Shown here: piece after piece, positions 2 to 8,682 of the stretch
Layout of the letters: the number at the start of each line of letters is the position of its first letter
How positions within the stretch are numbered: position 1 is the first letter of the stretch
From: Methyloversatilis universalis EHg5
GTDB taxonomy: Bacteria; Pseudomonadota; Gammaproteobacteria; Burkholderiales; Rhodocyclaceae
Reading direction: 5' to 3'
Length of the DNA stretch: 64,000 nucleotides
Assembly: GCF_000378945.1 (NCBI RefSeq)
Contig: NZ_KB900539.1
Location: 3,236,122 to 3,300,121, forward strand
The notes under the pieces: generated by a model
What the model saw: only the letters and a program-made list of their open reading frames with translations
Told to the model about the DNA's origin: nothing
The model's database searches: none
Program-made: the position numbers and the translations under genes

Positions 2-1306
2 CGGATGGCGCTCGGCGGCTACCTGCCGCAGCGCCGGATGAAGGCCGATCCGCTCGAAGTACCGCCGCTGTCCGCCTTCGACGCGCTGCTGAAGGCCTCA
101 GGCGACGGCCGCGAACTGTCCACCACAATGGCCTTCGTGCGCATCATGAACATCCTGCTGCGCGACCCGCACATCGGCAAGCGGGTGGTGCCCATCGTGC
201 CGGACGAATCGCGCACCTTCGGCATGGAAGGCATGTTCCGCCAGATCGGCATCTGGAACCAGGAAGGCCAGAAGTACGTGCCGCAGGACGCCGACCAGCT
301 CATGTTCTACAAGGAGTCGAAGACCGGCCAGATCCTGCAGGAAGGCATCAACGAAGCCGGCGCGATGAGCGACTGGATCGCCGCTGCCACCGCCTACTCG
401 GTGCACGGCGTGGCGACGATACCGATCTACATCTTCTATTCGATGTTCGGCTTCCAGCGCATCGGTGACCTGGCCTGGGCGGCCGGCGACCAGCGCGCCC
501 GCGGCTTCCTGGTCGGCGGCACCGCCGGTCGCACCACGCTGAATGGCGAAGGCCTGCAGCACGAGGACGGTCATTCCCACCTGTGGTCAGGCATGGTGCC
601 GAACTGCATCAGCTATGACCCGACCTTCTCGTACGAAGTGGCGGTCATCGTGCAGGACGGCCTGCGCCGCATGATGGCCAACCAAGAAGACATCTACTAC
701 TACCTGACTGTGATGAACGAGAACTACGAGCACCCGGCCATGCCGGACGGTGCCGAAGCCGACATCCTGAAGGGCATGTATCTGTTCCGCCGCGGCGCCG
801 CTTCGAACGGCCCGCGCGCCCAGCTGCTGGGCAGCGGCACCATCTTCCGCGAAGTGATCGCCGCCGCCGAACTGCTGAAGGCCGACTGGGGCGTGGAATC
901 GGATCTGTGGGCCTGCCCGAGCTTCACCGAACTGGCCCGCAACGGCGCCGACTGCACACGCTGGAACCTGCTGCACCCGGCCGACACGCCGCGGCTGTCG
1001 CATGTCGAACAGCAGCTGCGCGATACGCGCGGGCCGGTGATCGCGGCGACCGACTACGTGCGCCTGTTCGCCGAACAGATCCGCGCCTGGGTGCCGCGTC
1101 AGTACGTGGTGCTGGGCACCGACGGCTTCGGCCGCTCGGACACGCGCGAGGCGCTGCGCTCGCATTTCGAGGTGGACCGACACTGGGTGACGGTGGCCGC
1201 GCTGAAGGCGCTGGCCGACGACGGTGCGCTGGACCGCGCGAAGGTGGCGGAAGCCATCGCGCGCTACGGTCTGGACGTGACCAAGCCGAACCCGCTGTAC
1301 GTCTGA
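2..1306 (+). CDS. aceE: Pyruvate dehydrogenase E1 component, C-terminal half (partial at window edge)
   Basis: Thiamine-diphosphate-dependent E1 of the pyruvate dehydrogenase complex, which decarboxylates pyruvate and acetylates the lipoyl group of E2. The visible part (about 434 residues) is the C-terminal half of the homodimeric AceE type; full-length proteins run near 890 residues, so the N-terminal half with the ThDP-binding motif lies upstream of the window. Recognisable family stretches include PDESRTFGMEG, FYSMFGFQRIGDL, GGTAGRTTLNGEGLQHEDGHSH and the terminal NPLYV. The frame is already open at base 2, so the ATG at 5 is internal. aceF follows after 199 nt in which I see only a weak GAGG ribosome-binding site. 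Operon order aceE-aceF-lpdA supports the call. Confidence 0.97.
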   Translation, partial: RMALGGYLPQRRMKADPLEVPPLSAFDALLKASGDGRELSTTMAFVRIMNILLRDPHIGKRVVPIVPDESRTFGMEGMFRQIGIWNQEGQKYVPQDADQLMFYKESKTGQILQEGINEAGAMSDWIAAATAYSVHGVATIPIYIFYSMFGFQRIGDLAWAAGDQRARGFLVGGTAGRTTLNGEGLQHEDGHSHLWSGMVPNCISYDPTFSYEVAVIVQDGLRRMMANQEDIYYYLTVMNENYEHPAMPDGAEADILKGMYLFRRGAASNGPRAQLLGSGTIFREVIAAAELLKADWGVESDLWACPSFTELARNGADCTRWNLLHPADTPRLSHVEQQLRDTRGPVIAATDYVRLFAEQIRAWVPRQYVVLGTDGFGRSDTREALRSHFEVDRHWVTVAALKALADDGALDRAKVAEAIARYGLDVTKPNPLYV

Positions 1307-1505
1307 GCTGTGGCGGGCGCGCCGGGGGAGTGCGCGGAGGGGCCGGATGCACGCGGAGGCAGAACCGTCAGGTTCCGTCCGCGGCAGCCGGAACGCCCTT
1401 CGCACGCCCCGGGCGTGTCAGCCGGAACACATGCACCGGCCGCGTCGCCCGCGGCCGCACACCGCGGGCGCGCGCTGCGCGACCGCACCCGAATGCGAGG
1501 CTTGA

Positions 1506-2912
1506 ATGAGCACGATCAATATTGAAGTACCCGACATCGGCGATTTCTCCGATGTCCCCGTCATCGAAGTGATGGTCAAACCCGGCGACCGCGTCGAAGC
1601 CGACGCGCCGCTGGTATCACTCGAATCCGACAAGGCCACGATGGACATTCCGGCGCCGCACGCCGGCGTCATCGGCCAGATCACGGTCAAGGTCGGCGAC
1701 CGCGTGTCGCAGGGCAGCGTGATCGGCACGATGGAGGTGGGCGAGGCGCCCGCCGCTGCCCCCGCCGCCGCGCCAGCGCCCTCACCTGCACCCACTCCGG
1801 CGCCTGTTGCGGCAGCCGTGACCCCGGCTCCGTCAGCGGCTGTCGCCGCCGCACAGGTCGCCGCTCCAGTGGCAGCCGCCGGCGCTGCCCCCGCCGCAAC
1901 AACCCAGTCGGCCCGTGGCGACTACACGCCGGCCGCTGGCGCAGTCGCGCTGCCCAGCGCCGCCGACATCGCGGCCGAACTGGTGGGCGGCAAGAAGGCG
2001 CACGCCAGCCCGTCGATGCGCGCCTATGCGCGCGAACTGGGGGTCGATCTCGCCCGCGTCAAAGCCAGCGGCCCGAAAGGCCGCATCACGCGCGAAGATA
2101 TCAATGCCTTCGTCAAGGGCGCGCTGCAGGCGCCGGCCGCTGCGCCGGTGGCCACCGGCGGCGGCGGATTGGATCTGCTGCCGTGGCCCAAGGTCGATTT
2201 CACCAAGTTCGGCGACATCGAACGCAAGCCGCTGTCACGCATCCGCAAGCTGTCGGCCGCGAACCTGGCACGCAACTGGGCCATGATCCCGGCGGTCACC
2301 TATCACGAAGACGCCGACGTCACCGAGCTCGAAGCCTTCCGCCAGCAGATCAACGCGGAACAGGCCAAGGCCGGCGTCAAGCTCACCATGCTGGCCTTCA
2401 TCATCAGGGCGGTGTGCTCGGCGCTGAAGAAATTCCCCGAGTTCAACAGTTCGATCGACCTGCAGGCCGAAGAGCCGGCGCTGATCATGAAGCAGTACTG
2501 CCACATCGGTTTCGCCGCCGATACCCCGGGCGGGCTGGTGGTGCCGGTCATCCGTGACGCCGACAAAAAGGGCGTGGCGCAGCTGGCCGCCGAATGCGGC
2601 GAACTGGCGGCCAAGGCCCGTGACGGCAAGCTCAGCGCAGCGGAAATGCAGGGCGCCTGCTTCACGATTTCCAGCGTCGGCGGCCTCGGCGGCACCGGTT
2701 TCGCGCCCATCATCAATGCGCCGGAGGTCGCCATCCTCGGCGTCAGCCGCACCACGATGAAGCCGGTGTGGGACGGTTCGGCCTTCCAGCCGCGGCTCAT
2801 CCTGCCGCTGTCGCTGACCGCCGATCACCGCGTGATCGACGGCGCGGCCGCCACCCGTTTCAACGCCCATGTCGCCGCGCTGCTGGCCGACATGCGTCGC
2901 GTGCTGATGTAA
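1506..2912 (+). CDS. aceF: Pyruvate dehydrogenase E2, dihydrolipoamide acetyltransferase
   Basis: 468 aa. It transfers the acetyl group from lipoamide to CoA and forms the core of the complex. Domain order: one lipoyl domain (residues about 1-78) with the lipoylation lysine K43 in ESDKATMDI; a long Ala/Pro linker (about 79-133); a peripheral-subunit-binding domain (about 165-203, SPSMRAYARELGVD); and the catalytic domain (about 235-468) with the HxxxDG active-site motif (H441, D445). One lipoyl domain rather than the three of E. coli is common in betaproteobacteria, and the partner E3 brings a second one. Start chosen at the ATG that opens the lipoyl domain, with GAGG just upstream. It is 10 nt from lpdA, so co-transcription is near certain. 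Confidence 0.97.
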   Translation: MSTINIEVPDIGDFSDVPVIEVMVKPGDRVEADAPLVSLESDKATMDIPAPHAGVIGQITVKVGDRVSQGSVIGTMEVGEAPAAAPAAAPAPSPAPTPAPVAAAVTPAPSAAVAAAQVAAPVAAAGAAPAATTQSARGDYTPAAGAVALPSAADIAAELVGGKKAHASPSMRAYARELGVDLARVKASGPKGRITREDINAFVKGALQAPAAAPVATGGGGLDLLPWPKVDFTKFGDIERKPLSRIRKLSAANLARNWAMIPAVTYHEDADVTELEAFRQQINAEQAKAGVKLTMLAFIIRAVCSALKKFPEFNSSIDLQAEEPALIMKQYCHIGFAADTPGGLVVPVIRDADKKGVAQLAAECGELAAKARDGKLSAAEMQGACFTISSVGGLGGTGFAPIINAPEVAILGVSRTTMKPVWDGSAFQPRLILPLSLTADHRVIDGAAATRFNAHVAALLADMRRVLM

Positions 2913-2922
2913 GGGGACAGCC

Positions 2923-4689
2923 ATGAGCACACTGACTGTAAAAATTCCCGACATCGGCGACTTCAAGGACGTGCCCATCATCGAAATCATGGTGAAGTCG
3001 GGCGACACCGTGGCGGCCGACGCGCCGCTGATGTCGCTCGAGTCCGACAAGGCCACGATGGACATCCCCGCGCCGCAGGCCGGCCGCATCGTCGAACTGC
3101 AGGTGAAGGTCGGCGACCGCGTATCTGAAGGCAGCGTGGTGCTGACGATGGAAGCCGCCGACGCAGCCGAAGCAGCACCCGTGGGAGCGGCGCCCCCGCC
3201 GCGATCGGCCGTCGCCCCCGCGCCCACCCCGGCCACCGGCAGCGCACCGGCCAAGGTCGATGAAAGCTGCGCGGTGCTGGTGATCGGCGGCGGCCCTGGC
3301 GGCTATTCGGCCGCCTTCCGCGCCGCCGACCTCGGCCTGGACGTGGTCATCGTCGAGCGCTACGCCACGCTGGGCGGCGTCTGCCTGAACGTGGGCTGCA
3401 TTCCGTCCAAAGCGCTGCTGCATGTGGCGGCGGTGGCCGACGAGGCCGAGGCGCTGGCGGCGCACGGCATCAAGTTCGGCGCGCGCGAGGTGGACATCGG
3501 CGCACTGCGCGGCTGGAAGGACAAGGTGGTCGGCAAGCTGACCGGCGGTCTGGCCGGCATGGCCAAGGCGCGCAAGGTGAAGGTGGTACGCGGCACCGCC
3601 CGCTTCATCGATCCGAACCATGTCGAGATCGCCCTCACCTCCGGCGACGGTAAGGCGGAGACCGGCGAGAAGACCGTGCTGAAGTTCGGCCACTGCATCG
3701 TCGCCGCCGGCAGCCAGGCGGTGAAGCTGCCCTTCATGCCGGACGACCCGCGCGTCGTCGACTCGACCGGCGCACTGCTGCTGGCCGACATCCCGAAACG
3801 GATGCTGGTGATCGGCGGCGGCATCATCGGGCTGGAAATGGCCACTGTCTATTCCACGCTGGGTGCCCGCATCGACGTGGTCGAAATGACCGGCGGCCTG
3901 ATGCAGGGCGCCGACCGCGATCTGGCCAGGGTGTGGGAGAAGAAGAACACCCACCGCTTCGACGCCGTCATGCTGAACACACGGGTGACCGGTGCGGAAG
4001 CGACGGCCGAAGGCATCAGGGTGAGCTTCGAGGGCGCCAGTGCACCGGCCGAACCGCAGACCTACGACCGCGTGCTGGTGGCGGTCGGCCGATCGCCAAA
4101 CGGTCGCAAGCTGAACGCCGAAGCGGCCGGCCTGCGCGTGGACGAGCGCGGCTTCATCCCGGTCGACAGCCAGATGCGCAGCAATGTCGCGCACATCCAT
4201 GCCATCGGCGACATCGTCGGCCAGCCCATGCTGGCGCACAAGGCAGTGCATGAAGGCCATATCGCGGCGGAAGTGATCGCCGGCCACAAGCGCCACTTCG
4301 ACGCCACGGTGATTCCGTCGGTCGCCTATACCGACCCGGAAGTCGCCTGGGTCGGCCTGACCGAAGACGAGGCGAAAGCACAGGGCCGCACGGTGACCGT
4401 CGGCAAGTTTCCGTGGGCGGCCAGTGGACGAGCCATCGCCAACGGGCGCGATGAGGGCTTCACCAAACTCATCTTCGACGCGGAAACCCACCGCGTTGTC
4501 GGCGGCGGCATCGTCGGCACCTCGGCCGGCGACATGATCGGCGAGGTCGCTCTGGCGATCGAGATGGGCGCAGACGCGGTCGACATCGGCCACACCATCC
4601 ATCCGCACCCGACGCTGGGCGAGTCCATCTGCCTGGCAGCGGAAGTGGCCGAAGGCAGCTGCACCGACCTGCCGCCGGCCCGACGCTGA
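2923..4689 (+). CDS. lpdA: Dihydrolipoyl dehydrogenase (E3) with fused N-terminal lipoyl domain
   Basis: 588 aa flavoprotein that reoxidises dihydrolipoamide with NAD+. Residues 1-78 form a lipoyl domain (K43 in ESDKATMDI) very similar to that of the adjacent AceF, joined by a Pro/Ala linker (about 80-108) to a standard E3 of about 475 residues. The E3 part has the FAD fingerprint GGGPGGYSAA, the redox disulfide in GGVCLNVGCIPSK, the NAD-binding GGGIIGLEMA, and the C-terminal catalytic HTIHPHPTLGE. This fusion is known in some beta- and other proteobacteria. ATG preceded by AGGGGACAGCC. Oddity: codons 87-96 of the linker are encoded by DNA identical to half of the REP-like repeat at 56.6-58.3 kb (see the repeat entry). 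Confidence 0.96.
   Translation: MSTLTVKIPDIGDFKDVPIIEIMVKSGDTVAADAPLMSLESDKATMDIPAPQAGRIVELQVKVGDRVSEGSVVLTMEAADAAEAAPVGAAPPPRSAVAPAPTPATGSAPAKVDESCAVLVIGGGPGGYSAAFRAADLGLDVVIVERYATLGGVCLNVGCIPSKALLHVAAVADEAEALAAHGIKFGAREVDIGALRGWKDKVVGKLTGGLAGMAKARKVKVVRGTARFIDPNHVEIALTSGDGKAETGEKTVLKFGHCIVAAGSQAVKLPFMPDDPRVVDSTGALLLADIPKRMLVIGGGIIGLEMATVYSTLGARIDVVEMTGGLMQGADRDLARVWEKKNTHRFDAVMLNTRVTGAEATAEGIRVSFEGASAPAEPQTYDRVLVAVGRSPNGRKLNAEAAGLRVDERGFIPVDSQMRSNVAHIHAIGDIVGQPMLAHKAVHEGHIAAEVIAGHKRHFDATVIPSVAYTDPEVAWVGLTEDEAKAQGRTVTVGKFPWAASGRAIANGRDEGFTKLIFDAETHRVVGGGIVGTSAGDMIGEVALAIEMGADAVDIGHTIHPHPTLGESICLAAEVAEGSCTDLPPARR
3181..3210 (+). repeat. REP-like half-unit inside the lpdA linker
   Basis: Bases 3181-3205 are identical over 25 nt to the first arm of the 121-bp repeat unit at 58060-58084, and five more bases match after a 2-nt gap. 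The segment is read in frame by lpdA as VGAAPPPRSA, in the flexible linker between the lipoyl and FAD domains where extra Pro/Ala residues are harmless. Only one palindrome arm is present. The match is seen directly; a past insertion is inference, because GC-rich Ala/Pro codons could also converge on this sequence. Confidence 0.7.
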
Positions 4690-4994: not shown

Positions 4995-5672
4995 ATGAAC
5001 GAGCGTGACCAGAACACTCCGACCGTCGAAAGCGACGCGCAGACCTCGGCGCCGGCGGTAGATGCCGGGCGCCGCAAGATCGCCACCGGCGGTGTCGCAG
5101 GCGCCGGCGTGCTGCTGTCGGTGACCAGCCGCTCGGCTTTCGGCACCAGCGTGTGGGGCACCTGCACCGGTTCGGAAATCGCGTCGGGCAATCTGTCGAA
5201 CGCCGGCACCCCGCGCCCCTGCGGCTGCAGCCCCGGCTACTGGAAGAGCAGCAACCAGAACGGCAGCGCGCTGTGGGACAACGTGAGCATTTTCAGTCCC
5301 TACCTGAAAACCGCGAAGTTCAACACCGTGTTCGGCTGCAGCTTCTACGTCTCCGGCAACGTGACGCTGCAGCAGGCCGTGGATCAGACCACGTCCGCAC
5401 TCGGCTCCTGGTGCCCGAGCAACAAGGTCAATTCGATGCGCAACGTCGCGTTCCATGCGGTTGCCGCGCTGCTGAACGCGCAGTTCTATGGTGACCGCTT
5501 CCCGTTTACGGACATGCAGACCGCCAGTGGCGTGATTTCGGTGTTCAAGACGGCTTTCATCAACGGCACCGGCTCGCTCACCACCGAATTCAGCGACCGC
5601 TTCAAGGCCTTCTATTCGTCCTATCCCAACCTGTGGTGCAACGGCAGCCAGGAATCCCCGATCCAGGTATGA
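4995..5672 (+). CDS. Exported six-cysteine protein with GYWK motif, first gene of the HprK-kinase cassette
   Basis: 225 aa, function unknown. An unusually long polar N-terminus (1-25) leads to a twin-arginine RRK (26-28) and a short hydrophobic Gly/Ala/Val stretch (about 29-43), which resembles a Tat-type signal lacking the full consensus. The mature part has six cysteines (C57, C76, C78, C115, C140, C215), an even number that would suit disulfides. It carries CGCSPGYWKSS (76-86), reminiscent of the GYWKN motif of secreted bacterial proteins, and the helical stretch VAFHAVAALLNAQFYG (151-166) fits that domain type. Its stop overlaps the start of the PqqD-like gene (ATGA at 5669-5672), so the two are translationally coupled. 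I infer it may be the substrate of the modification genes behind it; no sequence feature proves this. Confidence 0.75.
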   Translation: MNERDQNTPTVESDAQTSAPAVDAGRRKIATGGVAGAGVLLSVTSRSAFGTSVWGTCTGSEIASGNLSNAGTPRPCGCSPGYWKSSNQNGSALWDNVSIFSPYLKTAKFNTVFGCSFYVSGNVTLQQAVDQTTSALGSWCPSNKVNSMRNVAFHAVAALLNAQFYGDRFPFTDMQTASGVISVFKTAFINGTGSLTTEFSDRFKAFYSSYPNLWCNGSQESPIQV

Positions 5673-5932
5673 GCCTGGACAGCTGCTGGACACTGCCCCA
5701 CGCTCCGCTGGTATCCATCCTCCACTGGGAGGATGGCTGCGTGCTTTACGACGCACTCAAAACCTCCACCACCCTTCTGTCGCCGCTCGCCGGTCAGGTC
5801 ATCGAGCGCTTGCGTGACGGCGCGGCCGATACCGCCACGCTGGCGGCGCTGCCGGATGCGCCCGACACCGAATCGCTCGCTGCATTGCTCGACGATCTGG
5901 CAGAACACGGGCTGATCAGGCGCAAGGACTGA
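5669..5932 (+). CDS. PqqD-family small protein (peptide recognition/chaperone type) of the HprK-related cassette
   Basis: 87 aa from the ATG at 5669, which overlaps the upstream stop; an in-frame GTG at 5633 is less likely because coupling explains 5669 well. The pattern is that of a PqqD/RRE winged-helix fold: an N-terminal beta region, LYDALKTSTTLLSPLAGQVIERL, and C-terminal helices LAALLDDLAEHGLI. In RiPP systems such domains bind a leader peptide and present it to the modifying enzyme. I recall that a PqqD-like family is annotated alongside HprK-related kinases (an 'HPr-rel-A' type gene set), but its biochemical role is not known to me. The kinase gene follows after 3 nt. Confidence 0.8.
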   Translation: MSLDSCWTLPHAPLVSILHWEDGCVLYDALKTSTTLLSPLAGQVIERLRDGAADTATLAALPDAPDTESLAALLDDLAEHGLIRRKD

Positions 5933-5935
5933 GCG

Positions 5936-6862
5936 ATGTCCGGCGCCCCGCTTTCCTCCCTCTCCCGCAGCGCGCTGCACGATCGTCTGGTCAGCCCCGA
6001 CGGTCTGCGACTGCACATCGGCCGCTTCGTAACCAGTATCCGTTCCCGTCACGCTCAGGTGGCCGAAGGTCTGGCCACGCTGTACGCCGATTACCGGCTC
6101 GCCGACGATGACCGCTTCTGCGATTACGCGGTAGAAGTCGGGCGTGGAGACGGGCTGCGCAAGTTCGTGCGGCCGCAGTCGCTGTTCCGCTTCGAAGGCA
6201 TGCAGCCGTTCAAGCCTCTGCCCGGCGATCAGGCTTTCGCCATGCTGGAATGGGGGCTGAACTGGGTATTCACCAATCACGCCCAGCATTACCTCATCAT
6301 CCACGCCGCAGTGCTCGAACGCGACGGTCAGGGTCTCATCCTCGCCGCGCCGCCCGGATCGGGCAAAAGCACGCTGTGCGCCGGTCTGGCGCTGCGCGGC
6401 TGGCGCCTGCTGTCGGACGAACTGGCCATGGTCGGTCTGGAAGATGGCCTGCTGCTGCCGCTGCCGCGCCCGGTCAGCCTGAAGAACCGCTCGATAGACA
6501 TCGTGCGCGCGCTGCCCGGTGATCCGGTCATCGGCCCGATGGCCCACGATACCGCCAAGGGCACGGTGGCTCATCTGAAGCCGCCACGCACCAGCGTCGA
6601 AGAGGCGCTGACCCGGGTACAGCCGCGCTGGGTGGTGCTGCCCAAGTTCGAAGCCGGCAGCGAATGTGCGGTCCAGCCCATGGGGCGTGCGCGCATGTTC
6701 ATGTCACTGGTGAGCAATGCCTTCAATTACCCGCGCCTGGGCGTGACAGGCTTTCAGGCCATGGGGCGTCTGGTCGAGGCCTGCGACGGCTACACTGCGC
6801 GCTACGGCTCGCTGGACCAGATCGTACCGGCGCTGGAATCGATCTGCTCCCGCCCGGCATGA
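5936..6862 (+). CDS. HprK-related serine-kinase-like protein
   Basis: 308 aa, soluble. The core resembles the C-terminal kinase domain of HPr kinase/phosphorylase: HAAVLERDGQGLILAAPPGSGKSTL (123-147) gives a P-loop at 138-146, followed by LLSDELAMV (158-166) with the acidic pair at 161-162. The family HprK N-terminal domain is absent and replaced by about 115 residues of unknown fold. No ptsH, ptsI or EIIA gene lies nearby, so HPr is not an obvious substrate. Homologous HprK-like kinases phosphorylate the C-terminal residue of certain lasso peptides, which makes a secreted or peptide substrate plausible. It sits 3 nt behind the PqqD-like gene and 37 nt before the nucleotidyltransferase. Confidence 0.82.
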   Translation: MSGAPLSSLSRSALHDRLVSPDGLRLHIGRFVTSIRSRHAQVAEGLATLYADYRLADDDRFCDYAVEVGRGDGLRKFVRPQSLFRFEGMQPFKPLPGDQAFAMLEWGLNWVFTNHAQHYLIIHAAVLERDGQGLILAAPPGSGKSTLCAGLALRGWRLLSDELAMVGLEDGLLLPLPRPVSLKNRSIDIVRALPGDPVIGPMAHDTAKGTVAHLKPPRTSVEEALTRVQPRWVVLPKFEAGSECAVQPMGRARMFMSLVSNAFNYPRLGVTGFQAMGRLVEACDGYTARYGSLDQIVPALESICSRPA

Positions 6863-6899
6863 CACCGGGCGTACCGCCCCGCAATTCCCTTCCGCTGCG

Positions 6900-7994
6900 A
6901 TGAACAGACGAACAGACAGGCATCTGGCGAACACCCTTGCCCAGCCGGGCATCACCGCAGATTTCAACGCACGCGACTGGGAAGCGCTGATCGGCCAGGC
7001 ACGCACCAGCGACCTGCTCGGCCAGCTGGCGGAAGTGCTGCGCGACGCCGGCGACGCCGTGTCGGTGCCCGAGCCGGTACGCTTCCATCTCGACGCCGCG
7101 CTGCGCATCGCGGCGCTGCACCGGCAGTCACTGCAGCTCGAACTGGCGGTCATCGCCAGTGCCCTGGCCGTACTCGGCGAGCCGGTGGTGCTGCTGAAAG
7201 GCGGCGCCTATGCGGTGGCCGGCCTGCGCGCAGGGCGTTCGCGGCTGTTCGGCGACATCGACCTGATGGTGGCCAAGGCCAGCCTGGACCCGGCCGAAGG
7301 CGCGCTGTTCCGCCGCGGCTGGCGTCCGACCCACCTGAACGCCTACGACCAGCGCTACTACCGGCAATGGATGCACGAACTGCCGCCGATCGAGCACTTC
7401 ACCCGAGGCACGGTGATCGACCTGCACCACACCATCGTGCCGCCGACCTCGGGCCACATTCCCGATCCGGCACGGCTGATCGCCGATGCGCGACCGGTGC
7501 AGGTGGCGCACTGCCCGGACATCTTCCGCGTGCTGTCGCCGGTGGACATGGTCATGCATTCCGCCTGCCACCTGTTCTACGGCGAGCTGCAGAAAGGTCT
7601 GCGCGATCTGTACGACCTGCACTGCCTGATCGGCGAATTTTCGGTCGAAGAGGGTTTCTGGGCGCATCTGCTGCCGCAGGCTCGGGCACATCAGCTCGAA
7701 TACCCGGTGCTGCTTGCACTGCGCTTCGCGCGCCGGGTGTTCGGCACCGCGGTGCCGGAGGCGATCGCGGAGGAGTGCGACCGCCGCCTCGGCCGGCGCT
7801 GGACCGGTGCGCTGACCGATCACCTGATCGACGCTTCGATGTATGCGCTGCACCCGAGCAGCGACTCGACCTGGCGCCGCGCACGCCGGCACATTCTCTA
7901 CGCGCGCAGCCACTGGCTTAGAATGCCTCTGCACCTGCTGATCCCGCACCTCGCGTACAAGGCCTTCATCCACGACGAAGCCCGGGTCGGCTGA
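6900..7994 (+). CDS. Nucleotidyltransferase family protein (NTP_transf_5-like), last gene of the HprK-related cassette
   Basis: 364 aa. [30 protein letters not shown] (95-124) matches the uncharacterised nucleotidyltransferase family in which LKG is followed by R and the metal-binding D-x-D (D119, D121) of a polymerase-beta-like fold. A later [12 protein letters not shown] stretch and a helical C-terminus are also typical. Such proteins occur beside HprK-like kinases in some lasso-peptide loci, so nucleotidylation of a peptide or protein is a reasonable hypothesis; substrate and nucleotide cannot be read from the sequence. rpiA begins 17 nt downstream and may be read through, but its function looks unrelated. 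Confidence 0.8.
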
Positions 7995-8010: not shown

Positions 8011-8682
8011 ATGACTGCAGACGAACTGAAGATCGCGGTGGCGCGCGCCGCCCTGCCCCATGTGGTGCCGGGCGAACTGCTCGGCGTCGGTACCGGCTCG
8101 ACCGCCAACCATTTCATCGACCTGCTGGCCGCCGAGAAGATTGCGGTCAGCGGAGCGATCGCAAGCTCCGAAGCGTCCGCGACGCGCCTGCGCAGCCACG
8201 GCATTCCGGTGTTGTCGCTGGACGAGGCCATCGCCTCCGGCCGGCGCATTCCGGTCTATGTCGACGGCGCCGACGAGATCGATCCCGGTCTCAACCTGAT
8301 CAAGGGCGGCGGCGGGGCGCTGACGCGCGAAAAGATCGTCGCGGCGGCGTCCGACTGTTTCGTCTGCATCGCCGACCACTCGAAGTGCGTCGAGGTGCTG
8401 GGCCGCTTCCCGCTGCCGGTCGAGGTGATTCCGATGGCGCTTGCTCTGGTCGCCCGCGAACTGACCCGCATGGGGGGCATTCCGAAGCTGCGCGAAGGTT
8501 TCGTGACCGACAACGGCAATCTCATCCTCGACGTGGCCGGCCTGAAGATCACCGACCCGGCCGCCTTCGAAACCGAACTGAACCACCTGACCGGCACCGT
8601 CACCAACGGTCTGTTCGCCCGCCGCCGCGCCGATGTTGCGCTCGTGTCGTCGCCGGACGGCGTCCGCACGTTGCATGCCTGA
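8011..8682 (+). CDS. rpiA: Ribose-5-phosphate isomerase A
   Basis: 223 aa, usual length. It interconverts ribose 5-phosphate and ribulose 5-phosphate; here it serves both the pentose phosphate pathway and Calvin-cycle regeneration. Family motifs: [15 protein letters not shown] near the N-terminus, [28 protein letters not shown], and the substrate-binding [18 protein letters not shown] region. ATG preceded by AGGACTCCTTTC. It lies about 10 kb upstream of the cbb operon and is not part of it. Confidence 0.96.

Follow-up and report, generated by a model that had tools for sequence, protein, structure and literature searches.

Methyloversatilis universalis EHg5 carries a four-gene cassette that, on balance, appears to modify a full-length exported protein in the manner of a ribosomally synthesized and post-translationally modified peptide (RiPP). 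The cassette lies in a stretch of 64,000 nucleotides, hereafter the window (assembly GCF_000378945.1, contig NZ_KB900539.1, positions 3,236,122 to 3,300,121 of the forward strand). Gene 1 encodes an exported-looking protein with a GYWK motif, gene 2 a PqqD-like protein and putative RiPP recognition element (RRE), gene 3 an HprK-related kinase, and gene 4 a nucleotidyltransferase. The case is built from sequence comparison and structure prediction, which give the linkage of the genes, a leader carried by different cargoes, invariant serines, a predicted RRE-like fold, and conserved kinase residues. That gene 1 is the substrate is well supported by these comparisons. Binding, phosphorylation, the nucleotidyltransferase step, the export route, and the role of the product are the parts that we infer.

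The pair of kinase and PqqD-like protein is already known, having been named by NCBIfam as the HPr-rel-A system; what is added here is a candidate substrate family, its leader, and candidate serines. Genes 2 and 3 lie above both curated cut-offs of that system (TIGR04353 and TIGR04352), whereas gene 1 is matched by no NCBIfam model. A literature search found no paper using the terms HprK-related kinase, HPr-rel-A, TIGR04352, or TIGR04353, and no description of a likely target, recognition signal, or candidate serines for the system. A concrete substrate family, recognition segment, and set of serines can be proposed for a system that lacks a published target in the literature found. If the reading is true, RiPP-type chemistry decorates whole secreted proteins by way of their export signal, and the leader might serve as a tool for steering phosphorylation to exported proteins of choice.

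Conservation of the Cassette

The cassette was followed across 117 kinase loci, comprising the 30 best of the class sample, 7 from relatives, and 80 from public genomes (the best 80 of 582 relatives); some may be the same genome under two names. Kinases above the TIGR04352 cut-off are present in 41 of 369 genomes of the class sample and in 51 of 299 of the phylum sample. Profile searches of the 117 loci detect the first gene and the PqqD gene in 116 each and the nucleotidyltransferase in all 117. The match to the first gene has an E value below 1e-18 in 112 of the 116 and is weak in four (L030, L032, L043, L045). When the kinases are thinned to below 70% identity, the first gene is still beside the kinase in 74 of 74 loci. 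The recurrence of the full set of four in 116 of 117 loci shows that the arrangement is not due to chance. The original prediction, made from the letters of the window alone, had staked itself on conservation of the first gene next to the other three, and this held.

The complete sets are on a single strand in the order substrate, PqqD, kinase, nucleotidyltransferase in 112 of 116 cases. The exceptions have the first gene last (L108, L120) or the nucleotidyltransferase on the opposite strand (L043, L045). Gene 1 and PqqD seem to go together, being jointly absent from the fetched stretch in L077 and in three kinase loci of other classes (L257, L258, L264).

No recurrent fifth gene was found in 59 loci over 12 kb. 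The next most frequent neighbour cluster is in 18 of the 59, with an example that resembles a response regulator by eye, and a fixed fifth cassette gene was rejected on this count. Two clusters of 7 loci each are of polysaccharide-export types, judged by Pfam from one example each.

Leader and Candidate Serines of Gene 1

The gene 1 protein contains six cysteines, with the GYWK motif at residues 81-84. A twin-arginine, signal-like segment runs from R26-R27 to A48-F49-G50, and Ser60 and Ser64 lie a short way behind it. No Pfam or NCBIfam family matched the protein, and its relatives give isolated weak matches only. Conservation was read from an alignment in which the 116 first-gene proteins were reduced to 65 by thinning at 72% identity (excluding L082 and L122 for overlong open reading frames, or ORFs, and restoring L056), and fuller residue counts were taken over the 108 distinct sequences among the 116. 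Within the 65, which are 19-55% identical to the protein of the window, only Met1, Ser60, and Ser64 are invariant, and R26, R27, C57, C76, W94, and N161 are conserved in at least 90%. Across the 108, R26 is present in 105, R27 in 106, S60 in 103, S64 in 105, and S68 in 96. The twin arginine, a hydrophobic stretch, and an Ala or Gly at residue 50 (101 of 108) are features resembling those of a twin-arginine translocation (Tat) signal.

Confidence in an AlphaFold2 model is high for most of residues 71-210 and low for 1-70, so S60 and S64 would be located in a flexible stretch ahead of the folded domain, as expected of a modification site. The folded GYWK domain has no Foldseek match in the PDB at E ≤ 0.001 and a VIA Z of at most 2.8, results that do not establish a new fold. 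Its sequence finds solved structures with a best E of 0.05 or worse. GYWK domains also occur without the leader or the serine motif, in four exported-looking proteins (L186, L187, L188, L190; signal peptides judged by eye) where no Pfam family covers the domain. A protein with the leader and the sequence SGMMSGNVS, encoded at L191:4905-6101 on the minus strand, is a candidate substrate in trans, the kinase locus of that genome being on another contig.

The Same Leader on Other Cargoes

The leader also precedes unrelated proteins. Of the kinase loci fetched from the phylum outside the own class, 26 in number, 23 carry a leader-bearing first gene beside PqqD and three, those named above, have neither. 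The leader in these classes takes the form of a twin arginine, a hydrophobic stretch with P..(I/V/M)TL, and then mostly A.A and Ser. Comparison of profiles for 14 of these proteins and the GYWK family aligns the leader only, over 36 columns (probability 95.6, E 1.3e-8); by this measure the cargo is unrelated to the GYWK family, with the leader retained. The 14 aligned proteins conserve C71, C90, G151, and a C-terminal (S/T)CWxS. Other-class HPr-rel-A loci with a first gene of this different family, ending in (S/T)C-x-x-S and mostly in CWxS, are L242-L255, L259-L263, and L265-L268. Within the own class, the leader is found on other cargoes at L195, L196, L200, L201, and L202. The smallest such proteins, of 74 and 82 residues (L195, L265), consist of little beyond the leader and a C-x-x-S tail.

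Fifteen short peptides of 56-105 residues, without C-x-x-S, occur in 11 fetched sister loci (L166-L175, L204; e.g., L170:5775-8178). Their leader is roughly SRR.F(L/I)KK.AY.AP..LTL.A.P..A..GS. In 6 of the 11 (L166, L169, L170, L171, L173, L204) the same stretch encodes an HprK-like kinase that scores far under the HPr-rel-A cut-off, and a PqqD gene is also present in three of those six. With an aromatic-x-x-P in a Tat-like signal, these peptides look like a separate proteobacterial RiPP family.

The first gene is therefore not always a GYWK protein, since the leader stays while the cargo differs and GYWK domains occur without the leader. The original prediction had taken gene 1 as the substrate and asked whether the first gene is always a GYWK or Tat-exported protein. 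The substrate idea is strengthened by the conservation of gene 1 with the kinase and by the RRE-like fold predicted for gene 2, with the amendment that the constant part is the leader and not the GYWK domain; a constant GYWK first gene is not borne out, as other classes and sister systems keep the leader and swap the cargo.

The other-cargo and short-peptide sets were drawn from matches to the 65-protein profile, with Ser spacing playing no part as a criterion, so their likeness in the leader is partly a product of selection. A profile trained only on GYWK leaders gives a median score of 18.1 bits over 32 other-cargo leaders, 22.0 over 15 short-peptide leaders, and 4.6 over 42 Tat controls. 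At least 8 bits is reached by 30 of 32, 14 of 15, and 12 of 42, respectively. The controls are 42 hits of curated generic Tat profiles, all kept, with several segments that look out of frame. The separation is weaker in the reverse direction, where a profile trained on other-cargo leaders scores GYWK leaders at 9.1 and controls at 4.5.

A profile of the pooled leaders has 53 matches in 43 of the 369 genomes at E ≤ 1e-5, of which 45 are at most 5 kb from an HprK-related match, 8 have a kinase elsewhere in the genome, and none is in a kinase-less genome (kinase list down to E of about 1e-8); these counts are not independent because the profile was built partly from the searched genomes. Seen from the kinase side, 35 of the 41 enzymes above the cut-off have a pooled-leader match within 5 kb. 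Relaxing the threshold to E ≤ 0.001 raises the total to 65 matches, of which 8 come from genomes where no kinase is listed. Gene 1 is the sole pooled-leader match in the genome of the window.

Spacing from Pro to Ser was anchored in 87 of 111 GYWK sequences, in 31 of 33 with other cargoes, and in all 15 short ones, with duplicates and unanchored sequences falling out. The Pro is present in each of the 31 other-cargo leaders, and 27 of these have a Ser at Pro+15. The short peptides have an aromatic residue at Pro-3 in 15 of 15 and a Ser at Pro+16 (11) or Pro+17 (4).

The Putative RRE and the Two Enzymes

The structure model of gene 2 is of high confidence, and its fold is RRE-like, resembling RREs solved with their leaders. 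The top four Foldseek rows for its model are complexes of lasso-peptide B1 proteins with leaders (probability 1.00, E only 0.002-0.01). VIA superposition on TbiB1 (5v1v_A) gives a Z of 9.1 and a root-mean-square deviation of 2.6 over 79 residues; 2xdv, which is not an RRE, gives a higher Z of 9.4. The only PF05402 PqqD match of the genome at E ≤ 0.001 is more than 1.2 Mb from the window (L001, G000:C1:2000429-2000614).

The gene 3 kinase far exceeds its family cut-off (Table 1) and aligns to HprK with an E of 0.005. His123, Lys144, Asp161, and Glu162 are each present in every one of the 117 kinases. Fusions of these genes are seen at a few loci: PqqD and kinase share one ORF in four (L180, L181, L182, L215), the kinase domain lies inside ORFs of 802 and 642 residues in L184 and L193, and kinase and nucleotidyltransferase are fused in L261. 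Gene 4 belongs to an uncharacterised nucleotidyltransferase family; no solved relative was found below E 0.8.

Relation to Known Systems

For the linear polyphosphorylated peptides (LPPs) of Bacillota, the leader consensus is YxxPxVLxHQxIxFETxxS, with a Ser 15 residues behind the Pro; core Ser3 is the phosphate-bearing residue, modified by an HprK-like kinase, and no phosphorylation occurs with S3A, S3T, or S3Y (PMC13381572). In common with that account, the cassette has a discrete RRE, an HprK-like kinase, and a nucleoside triphosphate (NTP) transferase, as well as a conserved N-terminal leader, a variable C-terminal part, and a Ser behind the leader (PMC13381572). The Pro-to-Ser spacing of 15 is shared with the other-cargo leaders. 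The YxxPxV motif is absent from the leader of the window, whereas the aromatic-x-x-P of the short sister peptides agrees with it in 15 of 15. The leader here is instead Tat-signal-like, and most cargoes are full proteins. LPP clusters also have their own SpI-like peptidase and MsbA-like pump (PMC13381572), and neither recurs in the 59 loci, the genome as a whole not having been searched for them.

The lasso peptides paeninodin and pseudomycoidin have an HprK-like kinase and a nucleotidyltransferase homologue that adds hexose after phosphorylation, and the homologue of pseudomycoidin, PsmN, is linked to hexose on phosphoserine (PMC9266682). For lasso kinases the same source names the His-Lys-Asp-Asp set and the C-terminal Ser as the modified residue, whereas the C-terminal residue varies in the family of the window. 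A lasso-peptide locus was rejected, as the leader peptidase PF13471 has no match in the genome of the window. A further likeness, that of RRE-linked precursors with an export signal, is to the DUF2063-associated RREs and their DUF2282 precursors with Sec signals. Those leader regions are described as variable and as having no specific RRE motif (PMC12710340), whereas here the signal-like segment is conserved with the cassette. The cassette is of the kind that combines RRE, HprK-like kinase, and nucleotidyltransferase. It is set apart from LPP and lasso systems by an export-signal-like leader, by exchangeable cargo of protein size, and by having no peptidase or pump that recurs beside it.

Proposed Mechanism

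The gene 2 RRE would bind the leader of gene 1, which would act both as a Tat-like export signal and as a RiPP leader. The protein so held would be presented to the HprK-related kinase, which would phosphorylate one or more of S60, S64, and S68, 10 to 18 residues past the predicted cleavage point. The PF14907 nucleotidyltransferase may next add a further group to this phosphate, either a nucleotide or a sugar, the latter being reported for PsmN. Export of the protein and removal of the leader would finally fall to the general Tat translocon and signal peptidase. TatC is encoded in the genome (PF00902, 239.4 bits). Since the general machinery would export and cleave, no peptidase or pump of its own would be needed, and the absence of a recurrent one nearby fits this route.

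A bolder form of the proposal is tentative, and it is held with less than even confidence. The RRE might hold the signal, and hence export, until a phospho-nucleotidyl or phospho-sugar group is placed on the adjacent serines. One type of machine could then serve unrelated cargoes (GYWK proteins, the CWxS family, and peptides of 56-105 residues), because only the leader would be read. Tat proofreading chaperones, which hold cofactor enzymes, offer a parallel.

Points Against and Alternative Explanations

A number of observations weigh against modification of gene 1 by this route. In other classes the nucleotidyltransferase is the least constant part of the cassette, with only 13 of the 26 loci showing it inside the fetched 1.5 kb (two of the 13 without it run off a short contig). 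Deletion of the NTP transferase of the LPP system made no detectable change (PMC13381572). In all 117 kinases, E162 replaces the second Asp of the His-Lys-Asp-Asp set, whose first three residues are retained as H123, K144, and D161. Within the genus, 5 of 13 genomes (L209, L222, L225, L016, L018) have no PqqD above about 5 bits, and their kinase, nucleotidyltransferase (where covered), and serines (where read) persist. Four of the five retain a leftover frame of fewer than 50 residues resembling the first half of PqqD. The four first genes read from PqqD-less genomes have lost the T-L and A-x-A pattern of the leader and retain SG..SGN.S. This one case is suggestive of RRE and leader decaying together, and it is equally a sign that the RRE may be dispensable; the five genomes amount to a natural experiment on how far the system depends on the RRE.

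The leader itself adds to this side. That of the window has a Gly at the position of the RRE proline and no preceding aromatic, and among GYWK leaders the Pro is present in 31 of 87 and the aromatic in 0 of 87. The GYWK serines recur every four residues and are further from the leader than Ser3 of the LPPs. A profile trained on short peptides separates GYWK leaders from controls weakly (6.7 against 5.7), and the shared origin of the pooled profile and the searched genomes has been noted above.

Gene 1 could instead be a partner or regulator. The enzymes would then modify a different protein or some small molecule, and the leader would serve export only. The modification is, after all, a prediction from sequence, the LPP deletion just cited had no visible effect, and kinases without genes 1 and 2 do occur (L077, L257, L258, L264). 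This alternative is rather unlikely, given that the leader accompanies the enzymes across unrelated cargoes, is distinct from generic Tat signals, and precedes the invariant S60 and S64.

The kinase might also target another residue. One option is position 42 of the leader, where phosphorylation would gate export; for other classes, the serine in the C-terminal C-x-x-S is a second option. Position 42 is Thr or Ser in 101 of 108 first-gene proteins (S42 in the window), which is less conserved than S60 and S64. C-x-x-S lies in the last 45 residues of 30 of 33 other-cargo proteins, including those of 74 and 82 residues, and all 14 aligned proteins share its Ser. Because this is a second conserved Ser, the modification site in the other-class cargoes is ambiguous, a further point against the proposed mechanism. 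C-x-x-S could be a shared target, as C-x(2-3)-S also occurs in the GYWK family, at Cys57-Ser60. Lasso kinases do modify a C-terminal Ser (PMC9266682), whereas the C-terminal residue of the family of the window is variable, being Ser in 11 of 116. In the LPP system, S3T is not accepted by LppK (PMC13381572). A target away from S60, S64, and S68 is accordingly considered quite unlikely.

A further alternative is a cytoplasmic RiPP-like protein: the RRE would read its leader without that leader being a Tat signal, and export would take another route or be absent. This would explain why curated Tat models miss the leader, a failure that likewise counts against the proposed export step. Gene 1 is not among the 15 TIGR01409 matches of the genome at E ≤ 0.1, TIGR01409 matches 0 of the 65 family members at E ≤ 5, where there is a single weak formate_TAT match, and PF10518 is found only weakly and below threshold in 3 of 10 other-cargo proteins. 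The near-universal twin arginine, the hydrophobic stretch, the Ala or Gly end, the cysteine-rich cargo, and the TatC of the genome make such a protein very unlikely. A phage-defence or toxin-antitoxin unit based on the nucleotidyltransferase, suggested by the faint resemblance of gene 4 to AbiEii (E 0.071), was rejected as extremely improbable, since none of the four proteins matches a PADLOC model at E ≤ 0.01 and the linked leader protein would be left unexplained.

Layout of the Locus

The cassette consists of four ORFs in tandem on the plus strand, at 4995-7994 of the window (Table 1). As first described, the stop of gene 1 and the start of gene 2 overlap in ATGA (5669-5672), gene 3 follows gene 2 after 3 nucleotides, and gene 4 follows gene 3 after 37; the ORFs confirm all of these.

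Table 1. Features of the cassette, in window coordinates.
Feature	Position	Strand	Evidence
Gene 1, candidate substrate, exported GYWK protein, 225 residues, six Cys	4995..5672	+	ORF; relative beside kinase in 116/117 loci
Leader, residues 25-50 (R26-R27, hydrophobic stretch, A/G at 50)	5067..5144	+	RR 105-106/108; A/G 101/108
Candidate modification site, residues 57-68 (C-x2-S60-x3-S64-G-N-x-S68)	5163..5198	+	S60, S64 65/65; S68 96/108; codons S60 5172-5174, S64 5184-5186, S68 5196-5198
GYWK domain (folded cargo), about residues 75-213	5217..5633	+	AlphaFold2 confident over most of 71-210
Gene 2, PqqD-like putative RRE, 87 residues	5669..5932	+	TIGR04353 (HPr-rel-A system PqqD family peptide chaperone), 48.4 bits, cut-off 35; pLDDT 92; RRE-like fold of model
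Gene 3, HprK-related kinase A, 308 residues (H123, K144, D161, E162)	5936..6862	+	TIGR04352, 417.5 bits, cut-off 200; four residues each 117/117
Gene 4, nucleotidyltransferase, 364 residues (LKG, D119-x-D121)	6900..7994	+	PF14907, 181.7 bits, cut-off 31.2; LKG and D119-x-D121 invariant in 16 aligned relatives

A scan for sigma-70 promoters found 0 against 0.4 expected. The upstream flank (window 5-4689) is presumably occupied by genes of the pyruvate dehydrogenase complex, and the downstream gene (8011-8682) is taken to encode ribose-5-phosphate isomerase.

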